Shown here: positions 25,690 to 49,758 of the stretch, one piece after another
Numbering within the stretch: the stretch's first letter is position 1
Layout of the letters: the number at the start of each line of letters is the position of its first letter
Origin: Terriglobia bacterium
Lineage (GTDB): Bacteria; Acidobacteriota; Terriglobia; Acidiferrales; UBA7541
Direction: 5' to 3'
Assembly (NCBI GenBank): GCA_020073705.1
Contig: JAIQES010000006.1
Span: forward strand, 1-64,000
Length of the DNA stretch: 64,000 nt
Position numbers and translations under genes: made by a program
The notes under the pieces: model-generated
What the model was told of the DNA's origin: nothing
The model's database searches: none
Seen by the model: the letters and a program-made list of their open reading frames with translations, nothing else

Positions 25690-25766
<77 letters not shown>

Positions 25767-37037: not shown

Positions 37038-37083
37038 GCTCATAACCCGAAGGTCGTTGGTTCAAATCCAACCCCCGCAACCA
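37038..37083 (+). repeat. Attachment-site repeat, far copy (attR-like tRNA-fMet 3' fragment)
   Basis: Exact 46-base copy of positions 25721-25766: half of the anticodon arm, the T arm, acceptor 3' strand and CCA. It has no 5' half and cannot make a tRNA. The terminator that follows probably belonged to the original tRNA gene before integration. Confidence 0.9.
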
Positions 37084-37220: not shown

Positions 37221-37264
37221 TTGACGGTGGATACAGTATAGAATACAGTATTTTTGGAGGAGAT
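37221..37264 (+). promoter_or_regulatory. Promoter with two overlapping ATACAGTAT operators and a strong ribosome-binding site
   Basis: TTGACG (37221-37226), 17-base spacer, TACAGT (37244-37249). The 9-base palindrome ATAC-A-GTAT occurs twice, at 37231-37239 and 37243-37251, inside the spacer and over the -10 box. This is a classic repression layout and consistent with a GntR/FadR-type dimer. GGAGGAGAT (37256-37264) is the ribosome-binding site for the gene at 37271. Confidence 0.6.
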
Positions 37265-37270
37265 ATCCAC

Positions 37271-38566
37271 ATGGGCATGACGATTGCCCAGAAAATCCTA
37301 GCTACAAAGGCCGGTCTCTCTACTGCAGAGCCGGGAGAAATCGTAGAGGCTTATCCGGACCTTGTGATGAGTCACACGGCCACGTGGCGATCAGTCAGCG
37401 TTATGAACAAGATTGGCGCCACCAAACTCTTCGATCCCGAACGTCTCGCCATTGTTCTGGACCATATCTCGCCTGCAAAATCCGAAAAGAACGCCGCTGA
37501 TCAGCAGGTTAGTCGTGCGTTCGCTCGAAAGTACGGGATTCGCAAATTCTTTGACATTGATTCCGGCATTGCCCATTTAGTTCTGATGGAAGCCGGACAC
37601 GTTGCCCCAGGTGACTTGATTGTTGGAACCGATTCCCATTGCACAATCTACGGAAGCCTTGGCGCGCTCGGCACGGGAATCGGATATACGGAGGTCACGT
37701 CAGTCTGGCTTACTGGGAAGCTCTGGATGAAGGTCCCGGATACCTTCCGGATCGTTCTTAGTGGTGAATTTGCGCCGGGTGTTTTCTCAAAGGATCTAAT
37801 GCTCTACCTCATCGGAACCCTCGGTGCCGATGGATGCAGCTACAAATCGATTGAATTCTACGGTGATTCGGTTGTCGGCCTGAGCATATCCGAACGAATG
37901 ACAATGGCAAACCTCGCGATGGAAATGGGTGTGAAGTGTGCTTTCTTTCCTCCCGATGCGAAGACTCTGGAATATTTAAAGAATCGGCTGAAAGAGCCTG
38001 ATCGTTACCACCCCGTTTACGCCGACACGGACGCCGTATACCAAAAGAAACTGGAAGTTGATCTCGCACAACTGGAACCTATGATTGCCTGTCCTCACGA
38101 GGTTCAGAACACAAAGCCAATAGGAGAGGTCGTCGGAAAGAAAATTGATCAATTGTTTTTAGGTTCATGCGCAAATGCCAAATACGAAGACCTGGCAATA
38201 GCCGCCCAGATCCTCAAAGGCCGCCATATTCACCCGAGCGTACGATTGATTGTCACGCCAGGCTCCAAGAATATTTTGCTAGAAGCAGCCGAGTCGGGCG
38301 TTTTTAAGACCCTACTTGAAGCGGGTGGTCTTTTCACGAATCCTGGCTGCGGAGCATGTGTGGGCGATGGAGGTGCCCTTGCCGATGGCGAAGTATGCCT
38401 GTCGACAGCTAACCGCAATTTCCTGGGACGGATGGGAAGCAGCAAGGCAGAGATCTACTTGTGTAGCCCAGCAACTCTGGCAGCGTCTGCCATTCGTGGT
38501 GTCATTTCAGATCCCAGGGAGTTTTTGCAAGATGCCTGGGCATCTGCAAGAGGGGAGGAGGCATGA
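37271..38566 (+). CDS. Aconitase/isopropylmalate-isomerase family hydro-lyase, large subunit 1
   Basis: A 431-residue LeuC/homoaconitase-type large subunit. The [4Fe-4S] cluster ligands are Cys300 (FLGSCANAKYEDL), Cys360 and Cys363 (NPGCGACVGDGG). The substrate-site motif IVGTDSHCTIYGSLG is also present. These enzymes dehydrate and rehydrate hydroxy-di/tricarboxylates, working with a small swivelling subunit. Its stop overlaps the start of that subunit (ATGA). The genetic context (M24-fold, cyclodeaminase-like, MFS, GntR) is catabolic rather than leucine synthesis, so a leu name would mislead. The substrate is unknown. Confidence 0.88.
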   Translation: MGMTIAQKILATKAGLSTAEPGEIVEAYPDLVMSHTATWRSVSVMNKIGATKLFDPERLAIVLDHISPAKSEKNAADQQVSRAFARKYGIRKFFDIDSGIAHLVLMEAGHVAPGDLIVGTDSHCTIYGSLGALGTGIGYTEVTSVWLTGKLWMKVPDTFRIVLSGEFAPGVFSKDLMLYLIGTLGADGCSYKSIEFYGDSVVGLSISERMTMANLAMEMGVKCAFFPPDAKTLEYLKNRLKEPDRYHPVYADTDAVYQKKLEVDLAQLEPMIACPHEVQNTKPIGEVVGKKIDQLFLGSCANAKYEDLAIAAQILKGRHIHPSVRLIVTPGSKNILLEAAESGVFKTLLEAGGLFTNPGCGACVGDGGALADGEVCLSTANRNFLGRMGSSKAEIYLCSPATLAASAIRGVISDPREFLQDAWASARGEEA

Positions 38567-39069
38567 AGACGATAATTCAAGGTAAGGCTTTCAAGTTCGG
38601 GGACAATATCAACTCTGACGTCATCATCCCGGGCCAGTATCTCATTTATATTGATGCGGAGCGCCTCAGTCAACATGCTTTTGAAGTGCTCGGAGATGAC
38701 TTCCCAGCCAAACTGCGCAATTATCAAATTCTAGTCGCAGGTCGGAATTTCGGGTGTGGGAGCGCACGAGAACAGGCGGCGACAGCGATTCGGGGGCTCG
38801 GCATCAACGCCGTCGTAGCTTCCTCGTTTTCGCGCACCTTCTATCGCAATGCCATTAATGACGGCCTTCCCATCATTGAGTGCCCCGATCTCCATGCTGC
38901 AGTTGAGGAGGGTGACGATCTTCGCATTGATCTAGCCCAAGCGTTGATCTTTCACCGGGACCGGCATTATTCCTTCCCAAAACTTCCCGACTCTGTCCGC
39001 GGGATTCTTGAAATGGGTGGCCTCGCCGCGTACTTGAAGACGCAGTTGACCTCTCCGCCTAGGCCTTGA
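38563..39069 (+). CDS. Aconitase/isopropylmalate-isomerase family, small subunit 1
   Basis: A 168-residue LeuD-type subunit, the swivel domain completing the active site of the upstream large subunit. DNINSDVIIPGQYL is the family N-terminus and GRNFGCGSAREQA holds the catalytic Ser and the substrate-binding Arg. The ATGA overlap with the large subunit indicates stoichiometric translation. The gene is convergent with the second large subunit, 27 bases away. Confidence 0.88.
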   Translation: MKTIIQGKAFKFGDNINSDVIIPGQYLIYIDAERLSQHAFEVLGDDFPAKLRNYQILVAGRNFGCGSAREQAATAIRGLGINAVVASSFSRTFYRNAINDGLPIIECPDLHAAVEEGDDLRIDLAQALIFHRDRHYSFPKLPDSVRGILEMGGLAAYLKTQLTSPPRP

Positions 39070-39096
39070 ACGGAGATATGGCCTTCGCCCGTGCAG

Positions 39097-40359
39097 CTAG
39101 CTCGCTTGTCTTGGATCCGTGATCTGACCTGTTAATGCTGAGACCGCCACAGTTGTAGCGGATGCGAGGTAAAGCCGGGCCTTGGGATGTCCATTGCGAC
39201 CGGGGAAGTTCCGCGGCTGTGTTGAAATCATCGCTTCTCCTTCTCCCATTGCCCCCATGTTCACAGCTTGGTTGGAACCGGCGCCCGGGGGAAAAACGTT
39301 CGCGCCTGCAAGTATAAACGTCTCAATCAGTCCTTCCCGCAATGCTTCCAGATAGATGCCACGCGTTGCAGGGACGACTTGCATCCGAACGCTCTGATGG
39401 ACTTTCTGGCCTTTTAGCCATTTTCCTAATACGCGCAGGTCTTCTAGGCGCCCACCAGTACTTCCACCAACCTCTGCGATATTGATAGGAATCCCGGCCA
39501 CGTCCTCGACTGGTTTCACGTTGCCTATCGTCGGGGGGCATGCCACCAGGGGCCCGATTTTGCTCACGTCAAATTCGACTTCATTTTCATAGGTGACGTC
39601 AGGATCGTTTTGAAACAGATCGAATTTTTTGAAGGAAGAGTGCGCTCTAGCATATGCGATCGTCTTTTCATCGGGATTGATAAAGCCGGTTTTAGCCCCC
39701 AAATCGATTGACATCAGAGGAAATAACATCCGATCCTCGATGGAAAGCGCCTCGATAAAAGGCCCCGTGAACTCCAGCGTTTTGTATACGGCTCCGTCCT
39801 CGCCCATGAACCCAACCAAGTGCTGCGCGACATCCCTTGGGCTGACTCCCTTGCCCAAAACTCCATGCAAAAGCACCTTGATGGTTTGCGGAACACGGAA
39901 CCAAGCTCGACAGTATCCAAATCCCAATCCGACCATCGAATTGTTTCCAACGCCGGTGGAAAAAAGCCCTAGCGCGCCGTAGATGGTAGAGTGGGAGTCG
40001 CAACCAATGATGATTTGCCCAGGTGCCCACAGGCCCTGCTCCAAGACCACATGATGCAGGCTGCCAGACCCACAGTCGAAGACCTTCTGGATCCCATGCC
40101 GGGCAGCAAATCGTCGCGCATCAACCAGAGTCTCAGCTGCCTCTTGAGTTGCCGGCGAAATATTGTGGTCAAAAACGAATACGATTCGCGACGGATCCGC
40201 GATTGTGCCTCCCCCCAATTCGTCACGGAACACCCGAGAGACAAGACTCGAACTCAGGTCGTGCATCACCATCAAATCGATCTTAGCGATGACTATGTCA
40301 CCGGGAACGACCTGTTTCTTTCCACTCGCTTTCGCCAGAATTTTCTCGATCATGTTCAT
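39097..40359 (-). CDS. Aconitase-family large subunit 2 lacking the iron-sulfur cysteines
   Basis: A 420-residue LeuC homologue that aligns with large subunit 1 from end to end. At the three cluster positions it has Ser300 (VGGSTGGRLEDL), Ala360 and Asn363 (PPGAGSNQAVN) instead of Cys. The substrate-pocket motif IIGCDSHSTIYGALG and FDHNISPA remain. It therefore should not bind a canonical [4Fe-4S] cluster and may isomerise, bind or allosterically control rather than dehydrate. The start is ATG 40359, overlapping the upstream gene as ATGA. The matching small subunit is at the other end of the same operon (43533-44063). Confidence 0.88.
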   Translation of the reverse strand: MNMIEKILAKASGKKQVVPGDIVIAKIDLMVMHDLSSSLVSRVFRDELGGGTIADPSRIVFVFDHNISPATQEAAETLVDARRFAARHGIQKVFDCGSGSLHHVVLEQGLWAPGQIIIGCDSHSTIYGALGLFSTGVGNNSMVGLGFGYCRAWFRVPQTIKVLLHGVLGKGVSPRDVAQHLVGFMGEDGAVYKTLEFTGPFIEALSIEDRMLFPLMSIDLGAKTGFINPDEKTIAYARAHSSFKKFDLFQNDPDVTYENEVEFDVSKIGPLVACPPTIGNVKPVEDVAGIPINIAEVGGSTGGRLEDLRVLGKWLKGQKVHQSVRMQVVPATRGIYLEALREGLIETFILAGANVFPPGAGSNQAVNMGAMGEGEAMISTQPRNFPGRNGHPKARLYLASATTVAVSALTGQITDPRQAS

Positions 40360-41363
40360 AGCAGTTCTGCCCCGTTCTCTCCGAGCCGGCATGTGTCTCC
40401 ATAAAACAATCGGGTTCCATTAATTGGCACTTCAACATCAGCGGAAAAGATCAAGCCCTCACTAAGCGCTGCGGCAGTGGTAGATTCGTACGGATACGAA
40501 CCGGAGATGTTCCTTAGGCACACTTGCGCCGGGCTTACCTTCTCCCGCCCCAATTTTCTTAAGACTTCCTCAAACCGTTCTCGCGCCTGTTTGACACTAG
40601 GGGCCGCTGCTTGGGTTCTTGCCAGACGCACCCAGTAGCCTCGATACTCCGCAGCGACAACAACCGAAAAAACATCCGTCAACTCAGTGCCTCGTGCCGG
40701 TGCTGGCGTGGTATTCCCGTCGCTGAACAGCAACAACAGGTCCTCAATGCCGGCCCTGCGAAAGGCACGCTCGAGCCTTCCCGCCAGCGTAAAATCAGTC
40801 TTTGCTGGTCCTCGTGGCAACTCCGTCTCCAGAATTCGACGTACCATTGAGGCACCGTTTCTCCACATAGAAAGTTCATTGGGGTCCGAAGTCCGTTTGA
40901 GGCTGGGCTCTGCCGATATGTTCACCAGCGAAAGTCCCGAACCCGTCAAGGGGCCGTAGATCTGCTGCGGCAGGTGCTGGAGGTCTAGGATCCCAAGACG
41001 CTTCCACGAGTAGTCGGCGCACACATTCAGCAAGTTCTCAGACAGCTTGGGAGACGGCCGGATGTCGTCCAAGATCGTCACAGATCGAATCCAGGGATAG
41101 ACTCTGGGAGACAGGGCGCAAAGCAGAATCGGAGGCCTTTCCCGGGGAACAATGAGCAGTGACCGGTTCCAGTAAGGCATAAAATTGGACAGGTACCGAC
41201 CCCAGTTCGACCGCCAAATGTCGGTGTACACGACCAAGGCGGGAAGGTCGTGTGTTCCAAGTATCTGGCGGACTCGCTCGATCCTCATCCGAAAAACATC
41301 AGGAGGTAACTCCAGCTTATCCCAGGTGATCCAGCCTCGCTTCAAATCACACCTCTTTTTCAA
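40356..41363 (-). CDS. M24-fold protein without metal ligands
   Basis: A 335-residue protein with the two-domain layout of creatinase/prolidase-type M24 proteins: an N-terminal ribonuclease-H-like domain (about 20-150, PALVVYTDIWRSNWGRYLSNF) and a C-terminal pita-bread-like domain. In the segment that normally carries the metal Asp residues it reads VVVAAEYRGYWVRLART, with Val and Arg at the ligand positions, and no GHGIG-type His motif is found. It is probably a non-metal enzyme or partner subunit of the adjacent M24 protein, whose gene it overlaps by 17 bases. The substrate is unknown. Confidence 0.72.
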   Translation of the reverse strand: MKKRCDLKRGWITWDKLELPPDVFRMRIERVRQILGTHDLPALVVYTDIWRSNWGRYLSNFMPYWNRSLLIVPRERPPILLCALSPRVYPWIRSVTILDDIRPSPKLSENLLNVCADYSWKRLGILDLQHLPQQIYGPLTGSGLSLVNISAEPSLKRTSDPNELSMWRNGASMVRRILETELPRGPAKTDFTLAGRLERAFRRAGIEDLLLLFSDGNTTPAPARGTELTDVFSVVVAAEYRGYWVRLARTQAAAPSVKQARERFEEVLRKLGREKVSPAQVCLRNISGSYPYESTTAAALSEGLIFSADVEVPINGTRLFYGDTCRLGENGAELL

Positions 41364-42450
41364 ACAGTTTCTTCTCCGTGCGATTCAAGGAAATACAACC
41401 GTCGCCCGTAACAACCAGTGTGTCTCCGAACACCATGTACCCAGCGAGTGGAAGGTATGTATTCGGATGTGCGATCAGCACCATGTCCTTCTTCATGACA
41501 TAGTTGACATCTTCAAGGATGTATGGATCTTCGTCTAAGTAAAGTCCCAGGCAATGTCCCCGTACCCTGGTGTATTTAGAGCCCGTGTATTCCCCGAATC
41601 CGTGCTTGCGGAATACGTCGTTTTGCGCCCTGGCGAGGTCCGATGCTTTCACTCCTGGTTTCAGCAAATTCTGAGCGGCAAGTTGAGCTTCGGAAAAAAT
41701 AGAAAAAGAACGCTTCTGTTCAGCCGACGGTGTGCCCAAAACGAGAGTCCTGCAAACCTGAGCGTAGTAACCATTTATTTGTGGGGTCAGTTCCGTAATA
41801 ACTGAATCTCCGCGTTGAAACTCGCGCTCTGTCGGTGGTTTCATTCCGACGACCTCACGCCCACCTGACGCAATCAACATGAAGTTGTCTTCGGCGCCAT
41901 TCATTTTTAAAAACGCTTCTACTTCGGCGACCAGTTCGTACTCTTTCATCCCCACCGCGACCGTTTCTGCAAAGCATTGGTAGCCAAGGTCCGCAAGCGC
42001 AGCCGCTTTCTTCAGGAGTTCAATTTCATCTACCGACTTAACCCTCCGCAATTCCTCCATTTCCCTGCTGGCCGAAACTGGGTCCTGACCGTTCACCTCC
42101 CGAATTGCTTGCACAAACCGTGCTTCCATCAATTCCAAACCGGCGACTGCACACACTCCGCCTGCGGCGCTTAGAAAGCCCTTTGTCAACCCGTTGGCAA
42201 CTTCCGGGTCAAGAATAATACGCGCATCAGTGATCGCCGCTGCGGCTTCTAGATCCCATGGGTCCGACAGGAGAATGTTTATATCTCCCCTTCGAGAAAC
42301 ACCCACCACCGCGTGAGGACCCTGGAAATTCAAATTAACCAAGCTGCGAAAGTAGTCCTTCCGCCAACTATGCCCGTATAACAATAGAGCGTCCCACCCA
42401 TGGTCCTCGATCATCGCCCTTATCTGACCGAGACGATTCTGGTTCAGCAT
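41347..42450 (-). CDS. Creatinase/M24-family hydrolase with altered metal site
   Basis: A 367-residue M24 protein with an N-terminal creatinase-like domain and C-terminal pita-bread fold. Expected ligand positions read Glu (VITELTPQINGYY), Gln (YAQVCRT), His (RGHCLGLYLDEDPYI), His (LIAHPNTYLP) and Gly (MVFGDTLVVT), so three or four of the five canonical ligands are replaced while the catalytic His is kept. That recalls metal-free creatinase and ectoine hydrolase, which hydrolyse C-N bonds in small molecules. The start ATG 42450 follows AAGAGG; GTG 42456 is possible. It is nine bases from the cyclodeaminase-like gene. Confidence 0.82.
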   Translation of the reverse strand: MLNQNRLGQIRAMIEDHGWDALLLYGHSWRKDYFRSLVNLNFQGPHAVVGVSRRGDINILLSDPWDLEAAAAITDARIILDPEVANGLTKGFLSAAGGVCAVAGLELMEARFVQAIREVNGQDPVSASREMEELRRVKSVDEIELLKKAAALADLGYQCFAETVAVGMKEYELVAEVEAFLKMNGAEDNFMLIASGGREVVGMKPPTEREFQRGDSVITELTPQINGYYAQVCRTLVLGTPSAEQKRSFSIFSEAQLAAQNLLKPGVKASDLARAQNDVFRKHGFGEYTGSKYTRVRGHCLGLYLDEDPYILEDVNYVMKKDMVLIAHPNTYLPLAGYMVFGDTLVVTGDGCISLNRTEKKLFEKEV

Positions 42451-42459
42451 GCGCACCTC

Positions 42460-43536
42460 TTAAGGTGACACCGATTCGAGGAACCATTCCGTTGGCAATT
42501 CCCTTCCCAACCCCATCTCCCTCGCCCGGCGGAGTACCGAAGCTCCGACTCCCGCAAATTGCAATCCTGCGCCCGTGTTATTGTTGAAGACCGTGATCTC
42601 CTCAGCGCTCATTCTTCCTGATATTTTTCCGGATATAAGATCCTGAATCTCTGCAATCTCCTCCCACTTCTTGATCCCCTTTTGCGCAAGTTCCCAAATG
42701 TCGGGAGACTGATCTAGCCTTGCCACCTCTTTCGAATGCACCACATACAGATTGGCTCGTCGGATTGTTTCGTCATCCAGTTCGCGCCGTTTGTTGCTGG
42801 CATCAGCCCCTCCGATTGAACAGATGTACACACCCTTCTCCACCCAGTGTCCGTCGAAGACAGGATCCCAAGCGGCCGTTGCCGCCTGGATGATGTTGCT
42901 ACCCTCCACTACTTCTCGAGACGAATTTGCCGCCCGTACCTTCCGTCCTAATCGGGCGCTCATCATTTCACAAAACCCTCGGCAATGTTCCGTGTTGGGA
43001 CTGTATACTTTCACGAGATCGAAATCCCACAAGCTGCAAAGAAATTCTATGTGGGCGCTAGCTTGCCACCCGCTTCCGAACAGCCCTAAAACTTTCGGTT
43101 TTTCCGGCGCAAGATATTTGGCTCCTACGCAGCTCATAGCCGCCACTCGCATTTTCTGAATCACGCCGTCAGGCATGATTGCGACCGGTTCGATACTTTC
43201 TGTGTCAAATAGAATCACCAACCCACAATACCGGTCTCCTGTCGCCACTGGGAGTAGTCGCCGCCTTTTATTTCCGGCCGTATAAGAAAAACCAGCCATA
43301 TCGGACGTAATCCGCAACGCCCAAACTTTACTTTCCTGGCTCCCGCCTTCTTGCGATTTGAATCGGTAATTAAACCCCGGGTGGCGCTTGGACCCCACGG
43401 GAAGGTAGGTCTGCGACCGTGGGCGGTTGATGGCCTTTCCCTCAGCCAATTCACGGTAAATGCTTTCCGTTGCGGCAATAGCGTCTTGCGGTGTCAGTGC
43501 CTTTTCCACTTCTTCATTGGTCAACAGCAAGGTCAT
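42460..43536 (-). CDS. Ornithine cyclodeaminase/mu-crystallin family protein
   Basis: A 358-residue NAD(P)-dependent protein of the cyclodeaminase/mu-crystallin family, whose members deaminate amino acids, reduce imines or form opine-like products. The dinucleotide-binding loop is VLGLFGSGWQASAHIEFL; the preceding RVAAMSCVGAKYLA is the conserved lead-in. An Arg/Lys-rich insertion (GNKRRRLLP) and a longer C-terminus than ornithine cyclodeaminase suggest a different substrate. It is coupled to the small subunit gene upstream by a four-base overlap. Confidence 0.87.
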   Translation of the reverse strand: MTLLLTNEEVEKALTPQDAIAATESIYRELAEGKAINRPRSQTYLPVGSKRHPGFNYRFKSQEGGSQESKVWALRITSDMAGFSYTAGNKRRRLLPVATGDRYCGLVILFDTESIEPVAIMPDGVIQKMRVAAMSCVGAKYLAPEKPKVLGLFGSGWQASAHIEFLCSLWDFDLVKVYSPNTEHCRGFCEMMSARLGRKVRAANSSREVVEGSNIIQAATAAWDPVFDGHWVEKGVYICSIGGADASNKRRELDDETIRRANLYVVHSKEVARLDQSPDIWELAQKGIKKWEEIAEIQDLISGKISGRMSAEEITVFNNNTGAGLQFAGVGASVLRRAREMGLGRELPTEWFLESVSP

Positions 43537-44063
43537 CGAGTGGCATCCTGTTCAGAGGTAAAAAAGCGCGACCCCGATTTCAGCAAGGGGATCAACCCAC
43601 CGGCTTTCAGCATGTCCAGAAGGAATCCAGTGGGAGCCCGGCCCTCGATTAGCTTCCCAGTCGTCAAGTTTTCCGCTATTCCCCTCTCCACATCCACGCG
43701 CAGCCGGTGCCCGGTCTCAACTGCCGCGTGAATACCGGGTACCTCAAGAATGGGCAAACCGATCTCGTGCCCGTTCCGGTAAAGTGTCCGCGAGAAGAAT
43801 TCGGCTAGGACCACACTGATTCCAGTTGCCTTCAGGGCCTTGGGGGCAATCGCTCGTCCGGATGAACAACCGAAATTCCTCCCTGCCACGATGATGTCAC
43901 CTGGCTGCACGTTCTTCGGGAAATCGGGATTTGCCGCTTCTAGAACGTGTTTCACCATCTCGTTCATGCCCCCTAACACAAGATGCGTCGGCGTAATCAT
44001 GTCTGTAGGAATGTTGTGCCCGAATTTCCAGCAGTTTCCTTCGAAAATGAGTCCGGCATTCAT
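43533..44063 (-). CDS. Aconitase/isopropylmalate-isomerase family, small subunit 2
   Basis: A 176-residue LeuD-type swivel subunit. The N-terminus GNCWKFGHNIPTDMITP fits the family. The active-site loop GRNFGCSSGRAIAPKAL retains the catalytic Ser and the Arg but changes the flanking residues (Gly, Ala, Ile where aconitases have Ser, Glu, His). It presumably pairs with the cysteine-less large subunit 2, four genes downstream. It overlaps the cyclodeaminase-like gene by ATGA. Confidence 0.85.
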   Translation of the reverse strand: MNAGLIFEGNCWKFGHNIPTDMITPTHLVLGGMNEMVKHVLEAANPDFPKNVQPGDIIVAGRNFGCSSGRAIAPKALKATGISVVLAEFFSRTLYRNGHEIGLPILEVPGIHAAVETGHRLRVDVERGIAENLTTGKLIEGRAPTGFLLDMLKAGGLIPLLKSGSRFFTSEQDATR

Positions 44064-44144
44064 GGTAGTAGCCTCGATCCCGCAGTGACTTGTTTTAAAC
44101 GCTCATCGTGGCAAACGGCAAAACCGCACTTCGACGGACAAATC

Positions 44145-45368
44145 TCATTGCGCAACAGACGGTACCGGTTCACGAACTTCAGGCTTTCGCCCAATCGCTA
44201 GTAGCAGAAAAAATGCTGCGGCGGCCATTGCAAGATCAAACGCAAAGGACGAAAAATACGAACCCGTCCGATCATAAATCAGTCCGGAAACTAATGCTCC
44301 GGTGGACGTTCCCGCACCAAAGCACAGCATGAACCATCCAAGAATCGTTCCCACATCATCTATCCCAAAGTATTCGAAAGCGATCAAAGGCGGGGCATTG
44401 AAAACTCCCCCAAATCCCAGACCAAAAATTCCGGCAATCCAGAAGATCAGGTACGACCTCGGAGAAATGACGAGGAGGCCAACAATTCCAATTCCCAGGA
44501 AAACTACGCTCAGCAACATCGAAATCCGCGCCGAGAATTTGTCGGCCGCTGCTCCTCCAAGGACCTTTCCCAACGCGCTCATCCCCAGAAGGATACTCAA
44601 TGCAAGCGCTGCCCGTCCCGGACTAATGCCACGACCCGTCAAGAACAATACAATATGCTGCTGAATTCCCGTCATGGAATGCGCGGCGAAGACCAAGCTG
44701 ATTCCAAACATCCAGAACAACCTCATTGCCCCTGCTCGTCCCCGCAAATGCGCACCTTTTGCCTTCCGCGCCTTGCTCACTGCCCGCTCTTCCCCAGATG
44801 TTCTCCAGACGATGACTAGGATCATTACAATTGGAACTGCCATACAGAAGGACAGAAATTCGAAAGCGTGCGAAGTTCCACGCGTACGAATCAATGTGCC
44901 AGAAATCAATGGCGCCAGAAAGCCCCCTAAGCCCACCCCGGCATTAATCGTGCCGACTGCCAAACCACGTTGTTTTGAAAACAAAGGAGCGATGAGAAGC
45001 GACGTCGGCAGCAGAGAAACGGCGGCACTCCCTATTCCTAACATCAGACACGACCCGTAAAACTGTCGCAGGCCTTCGCTCCGGGACAATAGGACTAGGG
45101 AAGCTGCCACCGTGCATGCGCCCGCCAAAAGAACGTTCTTAGGACTGTACCGATCCACTAACCACCCAATCGCAGGTCCTAGCCCGCCAATCAGCAGAAG
45201 CACGATCGCACCGCCCGCAGCTGCCTCCGCATGGGTCCACCCGAATTGCTTTGTAAGTGAGGGATAGAAAACGGGAAGAGAAAACAAACCGAACGAAAAG
45301 GAAACCAGCAGAACAACAAAGGCCGTGACCAACATTGACCAACGGCGCAGTAACCCAAGCTTCGGCAT
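44145..45368 (-). CDS. MFS transporter (monocarboxylate-porter-like)
   Basis: A 407-residue major facilitator with 12 membrane helices, resembling the MCT/oxalate-formate-antiporter branch that carries organic acids. Recognisable parts are the loop-2-type motif GWLVDRYSPKNVLLAG and the second-half equivalent GGAAADKFSARISMLL. It is the first gene of the minus-strand catabolic operon, 81 bases before small subunit 2, and divergent from the GntR gene, so it probably imports the pathway substrate. The start was set at ATG 45368; GTG 45389 would add seven residues. Confidence 0.87.
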   Translation of the reverse strand: MPKLGLLRRWSMLVTAFVVLLVSFSFGLFSLPVFYPSLTKQFGWTHAEAAAGGAIVLLLIGGLGPAIGWLVDRYSPKNVLLAGACTVAASLVLLSRSEGLRQFYGSCLMLGIGSAAVSLLPTSLLIAPLFSKQRGLAVGTINAGVGLGGFLAPLISGTLIRTRGTSHAFEFLSFCMAVPIVMILVIVWRTSGEERAVSKARKAKGAHLRGRAGAMRLFWMFGISLVFAAHSMTGIQQHIVLFLTGRGISPGRAALALSILLGMSALGKVLGGAAADKFSARISMLLSVVFLGIGIVGLLVISPRSYLIFWIAGIFGLGFGGVFNAPPLIAFEYFGIDDVGTILGWFMLCFGAGTSTGALVSGLIYDRTGSYFSSFAFDLAMAAAAFFLLLAIGRKPEVREPVPSVAQ

Positions 45369-45529
45369 GATCTCCGTGTGTCGCGGCACGATTTACCCCC
45401 CGCTTCGCAGTTGCGGAACAGTAATTCTCTACTAAACGCCCTGAAGCATGTCGCGACTGCATCTTTCTGTCAAACGGATTCAAAGAATCCCTCGCGCGAT
45501 CCAGCAATGTCAAGAAGAAAGTTATCCAC

Positions 45530-45540
45530 TACTGTATCCA
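45530..45540 (-). promoter_or_regulatory. TGGATACAGTA motif in the divergent MFS/GntR control region
   Basis: On the minus strand 45540-45530 reads TGGATACAGTA, identical to 37228-37238 in the promoter of the first aconitase-like operon 8.3 kb away. It lies in the 332-base gap between the divergent MFS operon and regulator gene. On the minus strand a TTGACA (45514-45509) follows about 15 bases downstream, a plausible -35 for the MFS operon. A shared operator of the local GntR protein is the natural reading. Confidence 0.5.
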
Positions 45541-45700
45541 ACTAATGAAGCCGCACAACAATTTCCAAGTACATTTCTCGGGCAAGTAGTGACGGGTGAC
45601 AGAATTATGGAGCAAAGACAACCACGAAGTGCGATGGTTGACAATCATCTGACGTTGAGAAAGACTTAGTCAGATCTCGTCGCTCACGAGACGTTGGCAT

Positions 45701-46414
45701 ATGGGTTTCCCGATGAAGAAAACCAGAGGCACTCTCCAACAGAGGGCCTATCAGCGAATCAAAGAGTACATCTTGAACAGCGATTTCTATCCCGGTCAGC
45801 ATATCCGTCACGTGGAAGTGAGTCGTGCCCTGGGGATGAGTCGTACTCCGGCGCGGGAAGCGATGCAGCGGCTGGTGGAGGAGGGATTGGTCAATCACCT
45901 CCCGAACCGGGGATACTTTGTGAATGAGATGACGGTCCGAGAAGCCGAGGAACTCTACGAATTACGCGAAATCCTGGAAGTGTTCTGCGTTCAGCAAGCG
46001 ATTGATAAGAGCACAAACAAGCAATTGCGGGAGCTTCGGCAGCTCCTGGATGTGTATAAGGACGCGACGAACGGTCGCGTTACGCGTCACACTCTGCTTG
46101 TGGACCGCGATTTTCATTTTAAGATTGCACAACTGGCAGGCAATGAAACGGTGTATAAACTCTTAGTAAGTGTCCTGGAAAAAGTCATCATGAAGCGCAA
46201 TATAGAGCGCATTGCTCCCCTGGACGCAAAAACAGGATTCAAAAGGCACGCAATGATCCTGAAAGCGATCGAAAGGCGGGACAAGCGTCAGGCTGTTCAA
46301 CAAATTCGTGAGCATATACGTCAAGGAAAAATGCGAGTCTTGGAACAAGTGAACCGGAAGAACGAATTCCGGCTCGGGAGAGCAGCGGACGGTGTGCGTG
46401 GTTTCCTGGTTTAG
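45701..46414 (+). CDS. GntR-family regulator (FadR/FCD type)
   Basis: A 237-residue DNA-binding regulator. The N-terminal winged helix-turn-helix (about 12-75) contains HVEVSRALGMSRTPAREAMQ and LVEEGLVNHLPNRGYFV. The C-terminal FCD ligand domain is all-alpha with likely metal ligands in DRDFHFKIAQ, KRHAMILKAI and IREHIRQG; such domains sense organic acids. It is divergent from the MFS gene, at the edge of the catabolic cluster. ATG 45713 is an alternative start. It very probably controls both operons through the TGGATACAGTA sites. Confidence 0.9.
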   Translation: MGFPMKKTRGTLQQRAYQRIKEYILNSDFYPGQHIRHVEVSRALGMSRTPAREAMQRLVEEGLVNHLPNRGYFVNEMTVREAEELYELREILEVFCVQQAIDKSTNKQLRELRQLLDVYKDATNGRVTRHTLLVDRDFHFKIAQLAGNETVYKLLVSVLEKVIMKRNIERIAPLDAKTGFKRHAMILKAIERRDKRQAVQQIREHIRQGKMRVLEQVNRKNEFRLGRAADGVRGFLV

Positions 46415-46533: not shown

Positions 46534-46731
46534 GGGGAAAATCCAGCAAAATGGTCAGTCGCGCGGAACTCATCGGCAGGACCGTTCCCTTTGGTTTTTC
46601 GATCGTCTCAAATTAGGGCTTCCGGCTCCGTGGACGGGCACTACGACCCCACACGCCGAAATCGTGGAAGCGACGGCACCTGCGCTGGCGCCGCGAATCG
46701 AGATTCTGGTATTCTAGCGGCTAGAGGCAGC

Positions 46732-47661
46732 ATGAAGCTGGTGGCGCGCATTTCGGTGCTGGCGTTGTTCGCAGGACTGAGCAGCGGACTGCTGGCCCTG
46801 CAGCGCGACGCCTTTCAGGAACGCAACAACTTCCCGCAACGCAACCGTTCGCAGCAACCTGGCGGCTTCTCGCAATGGTTCGGCTATCCGCAGAATGGCG
46901 TCCAGTCGTCATACTTCGGGCTTCCCACGCAACGTTACGCCAGGGGCGGCGCAGGCACGCCCACAGACTATAACGCCAAGACGGAGTGGGCCTTTGGCCG
47001 GCTGGTTTACTCGAATCTTAGCGACGTCGGGCCGCCGGTCGCGCATCGCAGTATGCGCCGCTGGTCAGAGGACTGGCCGTACGGCGACTGGCACTTCGCC
47101 GCAGGTGTGCAGCGCCTGACGCGCATCGACGCCCGCCACGACGACGAGACCGTGGACCTTACCAGCGACGAGCTTTTCAACTGGCCCTGGATCTACGGCA
47201 ATCAGGTTGGGAACTGGCGCCTGCCCGACGATCAGGCCAAGCGGCTGCGCGAGTATCTGCTCAAGGGCGGCTTCCTGCTGGTGGATAACTTCCACGGCGG
47301 CCAGGCGTGGCAGAACTTCATGGCCGGCATTCGCAAGGTGTTCCCCGATCGCCCCATCGAGGAGCTGCAGACCAGCGACGAAATCTACCACACGCTTTAC
47401 GACATTGACGAGCGCATGCAGGTGCCGGGCGCGGAATACGAGCTGACGGGCAAGACCTACGTGACTTACGTGCCGGACGGCGTTGAACCGCACTGGCGCG
47501 CCATCCGCGACGACCAGGGGCGCATCATGGTGGCCATCTGCCACAACATGCACCTCGCCGATTCCTGGGAGCACGCCGACGATCCGCTGTATCCGGAGCG
47601 ATTCACTTCGTTCGCTTACCGCGTGGGGATCGACTACCTCATCTACTCGATGACGCACTAG
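46732..47661 (+). CDS. DUF4159 domain exported protein
   Basis: A 309-residue protein with a signal peptide (MKLVARISVLALFAGLSSGLLA), a Gln/Asn/Arg-rich linker and a DUF4159 domain (about 90-305). Features include FAAGVQRLTRIDARHD, LREYLLKGGFLLVDNFHGG and a C-terminal FAYRVGIDYLIYSMTH. DUF4159 has a flavodoxin/glutamine-amidotransferase-like fold and often accompanies MoxR/BatA-type genes; none is nearby. The start was set at ATG 46732, where the signal begins, instead of the longer frame from 46591. Confidence 0.85.
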   Translation: MKLVARISVLALFAGLSSGLLALQRDAFQERNNFPQRNRSQQPGGFSQWFGYPQNGVQSSYFGLPTQRYARGGAGTPTDYNAKTEWAFGRLVYSNLSDVGPPVAHRSMRRWSEDWPYGDWHFAAGVQRLTRIDARHDDETVDLTSDELFNWPWIYGNQVGNWRLPDDQAKRLREYLLKGGFLLVDNFHGGQAWQNFMAGIRKVFPDRPIEELQTSDEIYHTLYDIDERMQVPGAEYELTGKTYVTYVPDGVEPHWRAIRDDQGRIMVAICHNMHLADSWEHADDPLYPERFTSFAYRVGIDYLIYSMTH

Positions 47662-48169: not shown

Positions 48170-48586
48170 CTAGGTTCTCCACCCGCGGCCGATTTCGTAT
48201 GCTTCGAGCACCGTCAGGAGATTGAGTATGCCTGCGGTGGCGAACAACCGGGTGCCGTAATCGCCCGAGGCGTGCGCAACATCGGGTCCCGCAGTCTGGA
48301 TCATATGCGCCAGAAAATAGAATACTCCGGCGCCCATGTCCGCAAAAAATCCAAGCCGGTCGAACATGTCTGTTGCATCGGCGCCGAAGATTCCTCCGCG
48401 CATGGCTAGGCCGGCGCACGCCAACCCGCCGACGCATAGGAAGTAAACTGCCGCCTTGCCCCACCGCCGCAACATTAGGTGTCCGAGCCCGGGGACCGCC
48501 CAACTCGCCAACGCGACGGAGATACCCAGCCCCAAACTGCCTGTGCCTTGTTTTTTAACCGCTTCGCTCAAGTTGATCGCCCTCAC
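48170..48586 (-). CDS. DUF6677 family membrane protein
   Basis: A 138-residue inner-membrane protein with about four helices and an N-terminal VPGLGHLMLRRWGKAAVYF motif that resembles TM2-type proteins; the sequence matches DUF6677, a family typical of Acidobacteriota. The start is GTG 48586, overlapping the peptidase stop as GTGA. The function is unknown. Confidence 0.72.
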   Translation of the reverse strand: MRAINLSEAVKKQGTGSLGLGISVALASWAVPGLGHLMLRRWGKAAVYFLCVGGLACAGLAMRGGIFGADATDMFDRLGFFADMGAGVFYFLAHMIQTAGPDVAHASGDYGTRLFATAGILNLLTVLEAYEIGRGWRT

Positions 48587-49758
48587 GCCAACAACGCCAG
48601 AATCTCAGTCTGCACCGCGCCCGTTATGTACGCATCTCCTTCTTCGACGTACACATTCACCTCACTGCGCACGCCAAATTCGGGCAAGTAAATCCCCGGC
48701 TCAATCGAAAAGCACGTCCGGGGGATCACGCGCCGCACATCGCGCGTCTCAAGTCCGTCCATATTCGCGCCTGCGCCATGCACTTCCTGCCCGATGTTGT
48801 GGCCCGTGCGGTGCACGAAATATTTCGCAAAGCCCGCCTTGCGAATCACCTCGCGGGCCGCGCGATCCACTTGCCAGCCCTCGATGACGCGCCCGGCCTT
48901 CAGATTCCGCCGCACGAATGCGACGGCCGCATCGCGTGCATCGCGCACAATCGAGAAAATCTTCGCATACTTTTCCGGCACTCTGGCGCCCAGATACCCA
49001 GTCCATGTAATATCGTAGTAGACGCTGTTTGGCACTAGCGTTTTCCCCCAAACATCGAGCAGCAGTAGATCGCCTTTGCGCACCGGAGCCGAACCTCGCT
49101 CTTTTGGCTCGTAATGCGGGTCGCCGGCGTGCGGTCCCACCGCGACGATCGGCGGCGAGTCGGACGTGACGCCACTCGCGCGGAATTGTCCCAAAACCCA
49201 TTGCTGCAGATCGTACTCACTAAATGCTTCCTTCGCCCGCACACGGCGCGCCGCCTCGGCAAATGCCGCCTGCGTAATGCGGTCTATGGTTCGGCCCGCG
49301 ACGCGATGTGATTCGAGCTGCTCCGGCGTCCACGCCGCTTCGAACTGCTGCACCAGGTCCGCCGAGCTCACCACCTTGCAGCCTTGTGCGCGGATCAGTT
49401 CGACCGTCCCCGCGTCCACCAGCGATATATACGGAATCAGGTTCTTCGGCGAATACTGCATGGCCACTTTCTTCGCCCGCCCGACCAGTTTCCTCAAGTT
49501 CTTTTCCATCTCCCCGGCCGCCGCGTAGACCATCTTTTCGCCGGGCAGCGAATCAAGCACCGCCGCTTCGATCCGGTGCACCAGCTTTCGCGGCGCGCCC
49601 TTTGCCGGGATCATGTAGAACCAGCGGCGCTTCGCCATGGCGTGGTCGAGTGCGAGCACGCGGTAGGCGATCGGATCGCGATGCAGGATGTCGTAGAAGA
49701 GCCATCCGTCGAGCTTCTGCTCGTTAAGGGCCTTTTGGATGGCTTCGATGTCGGGCAT
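48583..49758 (-). CDS. M24-family Xaa-Pro aminopeptidase/dipeptidase
   Basis: A 391-residue cytosolic metallopeptidase. All five metal ligands are visible: Asp in LLLLDVWGK, Asp in YYDITWTG, His in RTGHNIGQEVHG, Glu in FSIEPGIYLPEFG and Glu in VRSEVNVYV. The N-terminal creatinase-like domain covers about 1-160. It contrasts with the two M24-fold proteins of the catabolic cluster, whose ligands are lost. Probable role: dinuclear-metal cleavage of proline-containing peptides. Confidence 0.88.
   Translation of the reverse strand: MPDIEAIQKALNEQKLDGWLFYDILHRDPIAYRVLALDHAMAKRRWFYMIPAKGAPRKLVHRIEAAVLDSLPGEKMVYAAAGEMEKNLRKLVGRAKKVAMQYSPKNLIPYISLVDAGTVELIRAQGCKVVSSADLVQQFEAAWTPEQLESHRVAGRTIDRITQAAFAEAARRVRAKEAFSEYDLQQWVLGQFRASGVTSDSPPIVAVGPHAGDPHYEPKERGSAPVRKGDLLLLDVWGKTLVPNSVYYDITWTGYLGARVPEKYAKIFSIVRDARDAAVAFVRRNLKAGRVIEGWQVDRAAREVIRKAGFAKYFVHRTGHNIGQEVHGAGANMDGLETRDVRRVIPRTCFSIEPGIYLPEFGVRSEVNVYVEEGDAYITGAVQTEILALLA

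Follow-up and report, generated by a model that had tools for sequence, protein, structure and literature searches.

The 64,000-nt window analyzed here (positions 1 to 64,000 of contig JAIQES010000006.1 from a Terriglobia bacterium of the Acidobacteriota) carries at positions 37271-46414 a gene cluster for two LeuC/LeuD-type pairs of the aconitase/isopropylmalate isomerase (IPMI) family (LeuC1/LeuD1 and LeuC2/LeuD2), two M24-fold proteins (M24a and M24b), an ornithine cyclodeaminase-family protein (OCD), a carrier and a regulator; all coordinates below are window positions. Aconitase-type catalysis is the textbook use of an iron–sulfur (Fe-S) cluster as a Lewis acid. We posit, with confidence that is evenly balanced, that LeuC2/LeuD2 represents a branch of the [4Fe-4S] aconitase/IPMI family which, judging from its residues, lacks the cluster yet is active, performing a metal-free elimination or isomerization, probably next to a nitrogen, in an undescribed catabolic pathway common to Acidobacteriota, Spirochaetes and a third phylum. 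To our knowledge, no other branch of this family has discarded its cluster while staying active, and the LeuC2 clade would thus offer a natural experiment on the purpose of the cluster and on whether the aconitase fold works without metal. While every protein of the module belongs to a known family, the gene set itself is undescribed. There is in our estimate about an even chance that it constitutes an uncharacterized catabolic module, probably gained by horizontal transfer, that acts on a nitrogen-containing carboxylic acid of the hydroxy- or unsaturated type and is under GntR/FCD control. As such, it would mark an orphan route by which the unrelated soil, groundwater and gut bacteria that host it break down a nitrogenous acid from their environment, and it supplies the exact genes for expression and assay.

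LeuC2 is a member of the LeuC/HacA family, matching NF001614 at 432 bits (cut-off 385), TIGR01343 at 416 bits (cut-off 386) and PF00330. It falls below the equivalog cut-offs for LEU2 (383 versus 611 bits) and HacA_Meth (360 versus 550 bits), misses that for LeuC, and forms a clade separate from LeuC1 in the tree, each with a support of 1.0. We inspected 16 LeuC2 sequences in the numbering of mitochondrial aconitase, with the columns checked against that enzyme and the M. jannaschii IPMI. None of the 16 has any of the three cysteines that hold the [4Fe-4S] cluster: C358 is replaced by S, H or T, C421 by A, T or S, and C424 by N. Around the cluster, N258 has become L or M, N446 has become A, P or T, and E262 has become D, again in all 16. 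The acid/base and carboxylate-binding residues D100, H101, H147, D165, S166, H167, R447 and R452 are kept throughout, N448 is likewise unchanged, and LeuD2 retains the equivalents of the catalytic Ser642 and Arg644 in its SSGRA motif. As the loss is confined to the cluster and its surroundings, this is, at the level of sequence, the pattern one would expect of an active cluster-free enzyme, unlike that of decay.

The ratio of nonsynonymous to synonymous substitution rates (dN/dS) among close relatives is 0.02-0.08 for LeuC2, 0.04-0.06 for LeuC1 and 0.01-0.04 for LeuD2; LeuC2 therefore evolves under purifying selection comparable to that on LeuC1. A cysteine-less LeuC had been called in an earlier annotation of this DNA (hereinafter the original prediction), and it is borne out as a conserved, constrained lineage. 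Its recurrence in all 16 sequences rules out sequencing error as the source of the cysteine loss, and the dN/dS values rule out pseudogene status for LeuC2, M24a or OCD. The AlphaFold2 model of LeuC2 has a mean predicted local distance difference test score (pLDDT) of 80. Plasmid homologues of LeuC2 from Peribacillus and Skermanella, in which all cysteines are present, and one from Ancylobacter, in which the motifs are present, proved to be ordinary IPMI-type enzymes.

In contrast, LeuC1 keeps the whole cluster site along with every residue inspected in LeuC2, whether altered or kept there, its sole motif change being TNGR to ANAK, and LeuD1 conserves the catalytic Ser642 and Arg644 equivalents in GSAREQA. 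LeuC1 is also below the equivalog cut-offs (452 versus 611 bits for LEU2; 409 versus 550 for HacA_Meth; that for LeuC missed as well). Since the host genome has, at other positions, both a further LeuC and a full-length aconitase, neither pair in the cluster is housekeeping. The LeuCD isopropylmalate/citramalate isomerase of the HacA family (M. jannaschii, 4nqy/3vba) has the same fold, subunit split and most of the active-site residues; relative to it, LeuC1 has the complete cluster site, whereas LeuC2 lacks the cluster ligands, N258 and N446, has E262 replaced by D, and pairs with a LeuD2 bearing SSGRA instead of GSSRE. The broader claim that active sites in the cluster are rewired stood for LeuC2 and M24a on a column-by-column check and did not stand for the Fe-S cluster site of LeuC1.

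The nine genes are as follows:
LeuC1, 37271..38566, + strand: aconitase/IPMI-family large subunit with intact [4Fe-4S] ligands; GSCTNGR changed to GSCANAK.
LeuD1, 38563..39069, + strand: small (swivel) subunit, motif FGCGSAREQA.
LeuC2, 39097..40392, - strand: cluster-less large subunit, with VGGSTGGR and PPGAGSNQAVNMGAM where the Cys motifs are expected.
M24b, 40356..41363, - strand: degenerate pita-bread-fold protein without a metal site; proposed partner of M24a.
M24a, 41347..42456, - strand: M24 family with a remodelled site (E..Q.CRT, RVRGH, HPN.Y, GD); proposed catalytic C-N hydrolase subunit.
OCD, 42460..43536, - strand: ornithine cyclodeaminase/mu-crystallin family; proposed imine reductase.
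LeuD2, 43533..44063, - strand: small subunit of LeuC2, motif FGCSSGRA.
MFS carrier, 44145..45389, - strand: lactate/oxalate-formate type (SfMCT, OFA); proposed uptake.
GntR/FCD regulator, 45701..46414, + strand: divergent from the operon.

All nine open reading frames (ORFs) appear in the ORF listing of the window where the original prediction had placed them, and domain searches (PF00330, PF00694, PF00557, PF02423, MFS_1, GntR+FCD) confirm the predicted inventory of two LeuC/LeuD-type pairs, an M24-fold protein (M24a), a cyclodeaminase-family protein, a carrier and a regulator; the second M24-fold protein, M24b, is confirmed by the profile and model described below. Coordinates and strands likewise agree with the earlier description of a regulator divergent from, and a LeuC1/LeuD1 pair convergent with, a six-gene minus-strand operon in the order MFS-LeuD2-OCD-M24a-M24b-LeuC2. 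From LeuD2 through LeuC2 neighbouring genes overlap or nearly touch (LeuD2 and OCD overlap by 4 nt), with 81 nt separating the MFS gene from LeuD2. The true start of LeuC2 is probably the internal ATG at 40359 (MNMIEKI), overlapping the M24b stop as ATGA.

The seven-enzyme set (LeuC1, LeuD1, LeuC2, LeuD2, OCD, M24a, M24b) is present in ten genomes, namely that of the window, six further Acidobacteriota loci and three of another phylum, with a partial set in two Spirochaetes. Gene order differs among the phyla. As the association is conserved over three phyla, it is not a product of chance. A GTDB-wide scan with LeuC2 recovered 15 loci: 12 from Acidobacteriota and one each from a groundwater deltaproteobacterial metagenome-assembled genome (MAG), a Treponema and a Spirochaetaceae, with the same genome occurring twice in three cases (L031 and L018, L025 and L020, L036 and L019). 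Across the Acidobacteriota loci, OCD-M24a-M24b-LeuC2 occur in the same order in 12 of 12, LeuD2 precedes OCD in 11 (L036 ends at a contig edge), nine besides that of the window have an MFS gene ahead of LeuD2, and six have LeuC1-LeuD1 next to the operon.

Searches blind to LeuC2 gave the same picture. With M24b as the sole query, 151 genomes including that of the window yielded three strong hits, all from a different family within that class (G104, G130 and G147), in each of which M24b lies between M24a and LeuC2 and OCD adjoins M24a. An M24a profile run on 395 genomes of the phylum of the groundwater MAG showed a clean gap between matches of at least 438 bits and those of at most 182 bits, adding two genomes (G736 and G573) that both hold all seven enzymes. 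Thus, OCD and LeuC2 occur in the same locus in all five genomes found in this way, and because M24a or M24b was the sole query, the co-occurrence counts as independent. The gene-neighbourhood comparison suggested with the original prediction accordingly comes out in favor of a linked cysteine-less LeuC, M24 pair and OCD. The module is rare, since among 396 genomes of the window's phylum the LeuC2 motif pattern was found only in the window's own, M24a of this subfamily occurred in one of 345 sampled genomes of the Spirochaete phylum (one already known), and M24b was detected in none of five other genomes of the window's genus. A scan of IMG/VR with LeuC2 returned no relatives.

M24a had been described as creatinase-type. 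It is closer to prolidase (1.6e-36) than to creatinase (3.1e-17), although, as in creatinase, the dinuclear metal site is absent. While sharing the M24 fold with these enzymes, it retains only H280 of the five prolidase metal ligands; the other four positions carry E (for D209), Q (D220), H (E313) and G (E327). The new motif set, including an HPN motif, is coherent, invariant and unlike that of prolidase. M24b had no match of its own in searches of Pfam and the NCBIfam models; a profile of 16 M24b sequences matches prolidase 9kw9 at 9e-12. Its AlphaFold2 model (pLDDT 89) aligns with 9kw9 over 310 residues at a Z-score of 26.5 and a root-mean-square deviation of 4.3, and with DoeA and creatinase over about 310 residues at Z near 24. 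On this structural modelling, M24b has a degenerate version of the pita-bread (M24) fold. It lacks the motif set of M24a, has lost its C-terminal part in L026, L029, L030 and L035, and at a dN/dS of 0.10-0.14 evolves the fastest (M24a: 0.06-0.10). In dimeric M24 proteins, the N-terminal domain of one subunit typically completes the active site of the other; hence, a heteromer of M24a and M24b is the simplest reading, with M24b probably the partner subunit of M24a.

The best solved relative of OCD is the Δ1-pyrroline-2-carboxylate reductase 6t3e. It falls under the equivalog cut-offs for EutC (92 versus 472 bits), the iminosuccinate reductase BhcD (109 versus 500) and SbnB (91 versus 327), and has a dN/dS of 0.02-0.04. 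The nearest relative of this OCD subfamily found on plasmids (about 34%) is encoded on Sodalis praecaptivus plasmid pHS1 (L037, 10421-13056) beside an MmgE/PrpD gene; genes for an FAD oxidoreductase and a dioxygenase of the TauD type are close by, and a related pathway is perhaps encoded there. Proteins of the MFS and GntR families to which the carrier and the regulator belong generally deal with carboxylates.

Building on the observed gene set, its conservation, the residue changes, purifying selection and folds, we propose the following route, for which we infer the chemistry, the substrate and the order of steps, the order being a guess. Uptake would fall to the MFS carrier here and to NMT1-type ABC or TRAP transporters elsewhere. 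Lacking the dinuclear metal site usual in its family, M24a might, together with the degenerate M24b, hydrolyze a C-N bond of the amide or amidine type, and the [4Fe-4S]-dependent LeuC1/LeuD1 would hydrate or isomerize the resulting acid as aconitases usually do. LeuC2/LeuD2 could then carry out a cluster-free elimination or isomerization on the same fold, with no iron Lewis acid, to yield an enamine/imine or enoate, the LeuD2 serine taking the alpha proton and the arginines holding the carboxylates. Finally, OCD might reduce the imine with NAD(P)H, or act as a deaminase, to give an ordinary amino or oxo acid. Dipicolinate, isonicotinate/citrazinate, hematinic imide and hydroxyectoine were weighed as substrates, with none singled out.

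OCD-family reductases close similar dehydration routes in β-hydroxyaspartate and hydroxyectoine metabolism. Alongside these, the route is proposed on two precedents: the aconitase-fold AcnX dehydrates its substrate to Δ1-pyrroline-2-carboxylate, which then goes to a reductase (PMC8184944), and homocitrate isomerization employs two aconitase-family enzymes in sequence (PMC3556520). The likeness to AcnX is one of logic, in that an aconitase-fold enzyme dehydrates an amino acid and the imine is then reduced. Enzymes of the AcnX type are hydroxyproline or mevalonate-phosphate dehydratases. AcnX itself possesses an Fe-S cluster and shares less than 10% identity with other aconitases (PMC8184944), whereas LeuC2 lies in the IPMI branch, has no cluster ligands and forms a pair collinear with the IPMI LeuC/LeuD; it is set apart from AcnX on the basis of the published description of the latter. 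The claim that no described pathway has this gene set agrees with the open-access literature, in which none was found, though a subscription paper could be missed. In the pairing of 2-methylcitrate dehydratase PrpD with aconitase, two enzymes also share an isomerization, one of them without an Fe-S cluster; PrpD has an unrelated fold, whereas here both LeuCD enzymes are aconitase-fold.

Several points weigh against the proposed nitrogenous-acid pathway. OCD is missing from both Spirochaete loci, and the imine reduction step is therefore not universal. Plasmids of Neorhizobium galegae carry M24a-M24b with HyuA/HyuB, an MmgE/PrpD-type protein and ABC transport and have no LeuCD in the locus; hence, LeuCD may not be obligatory. 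At four Acidobacteriota loci, the available sequence showed no LeuC1/LeuD1 next to the operon. Moreover, the proposal as a whole draws on gene and sequence data, and the removal of nitrogen from the substrate is a prediction from them.

Other hosts add genes around the core. The groundwater MAG has HyuA/HyuB (HyuB being related to caprolactamase B, 343 bits), an NMT1-type ABC transporter and, by eye, a TctC-like binding protein; G736 has two UbiD-type proteins and a cupin, and G573 has a UbiD protein and an isochorismatase-type amidohydrolase. The common theme of the accessory genes across all hosts is nitrogen-containing and carboxylic compounds, pointing to no single substrate. The Spirochaete loci show an ordinary-motif LeuCD, an AbrB-type membrane protein and, by eye, a TRAP transporter. 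In both, a PreA-like flavoprotein with a ferredoxin tail (L033, 3105-4283) precedes the LeuCD/M24 genes and may replace the OCD reductase. In four Acidobacteriota MAGs (L022, L026, L029 and L030), LeuC2 is followed by a LigY-like metal-dependent hydrolase (L022, 11386-12417; 2e-119 to 5vn5), accompanied in three of them, in the available sequence, by an NMT1-type binding protein and an ATPase. In N. galegae VafX2 (L016, 8897-10010) M24a is split into two annotated frames, and hence the module may be degenerating there; the homologue in HAMBI 1141 is in one piece. A plasmid of Natrialba on which 30 kb encompass OCD, M24 and HyuAB was set aside as coincidental, as it has no LeuCD and its M24 is only 29% identical.

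The main alternative, which we regard as unlikely, is imide de-amidation followed by purely carboxylic-acid chemistry: a branched di- or tricarboxylic acid in imide or amide form (e.g., a dialkylmaleimide) would lose its nitrogen first to HyuAB and M24, whereupon the two aconitase-type enzymes would hydrate and isomerize as in citraconate, dimethylmaleate or 2-methylcitrate metabolism, leaving OCD a side role. It would accommodate the HyuA/HyuB genes beside the core in G535 and Neorhizobium, the amidohydrolase and UbiD proteins of G573 and G736, and the MmgE/PrpD-type protein found in place of LeuCD in Neorhizobium, given that PrpD dehydrates 2-methylcitrate without a cluster. However, the neighbourhood in the window has no HyuAB, UbiD or MmgE/PrpD, OCD stays closely linked to LeuD2 in almost every Acidobacteriota locus, and no dimethylmalate-type lyase was seen.

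We consider it distinctly improbable that LeuC2 and M24b are paralogues devoid of catalytic activity, serving to stabilize or regulate LeuC1/LeuD1 and M24a as the sole enzymes. Inactive aconitase paralogues do exist, as in the filamentous-fungal homologues of Aco2p (PMC3556520), and the degenerate, fastest-evolving M24b (shortened in four genomes) would suit such a role. LeuC2 does not fit it: the checked catalytic residues are kept in all 16 sequences, it has its own strongly constrained small subunit (dN/dS 0.01-0.04 for LeuD2), and the purifying selection on it equals that on LeuC1. We give still less credence to the idea that the cluster makes an unusual hydroxy or amino acid; biosynthetic pathways, too, contain IPMI-type pairs and OCD proteins such as SbnB, and OCD weakly matches SbnB, but uptake-type carriers (MFS, NMT1 ABC, TRAP) and a GntR/FCD regulator accompany a core that has no synthetase, ligase or aldolase-type gene. 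Ectoine/hydroxyectoine catabolism (DoeA/EutD, EutC) likewise places adjacent M24-fold and OCD proteins in one catabolic cluster, and the M24b model aligns with DoeA at Z 24, yet the parallel drawn in the original prediction extends to pathway logic and not to membership, and a variant of that pathway is very improbable, as M24a (54 versus 575 bits for NF038259 and 36 versus 613 for TIGR02993, both DoeA/EutD) and OCD fall far under the respective cut-offs, M24b has no NCBIfam match, and the cluster combines a different M24 subfamily, a degenerate second subunit and LeuCD pairs with no DoeB deacetylase, DoeC dehydrogenase or DoeD transaminase.

The guanine–cytosine content is 0.51-0.54 in the cluster against 0.55-0.61 around it. 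An intact tRNA-Met(CAT) lies at 25690-25766, and its 3′ end is duplicated exactly at 37039-37083, 11.3 kb away and about 190 bp before the start of the cluster. The stretch between the copies encodes two sulfatase-like proteins, a radical SAM/SPASM protein (a possible sulfatase maturase) and a TolC-like protein, and has the appearance of an element that inserted at the tRNA; among the listed ORFs, we noticed no integrase. The cluster was likely acquired horizontally, with tentative boundaries: a clean empty site could not be demonstrated, as the flanking gene at 46723-47658 (87% identical in G001, the nearest same-genus genome) lies there in a different neighbourhood. Just upstream of LeuC1, ATACAGTAT occurs twice at 37231..37251 with the copies 12 bp apart, and a one-mismatch copy sits at 45529-45537 in the intergenic region between the divergent regulator and operon; these repeats are suggestive of a putative regulator site or shared operator, a tentative assignment. 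Outside the cluster, a third M24 protein (48583-49758, - strand) has metal ligands that look canonical by eye and is best read as an ordinary prolidase-like peptidase.

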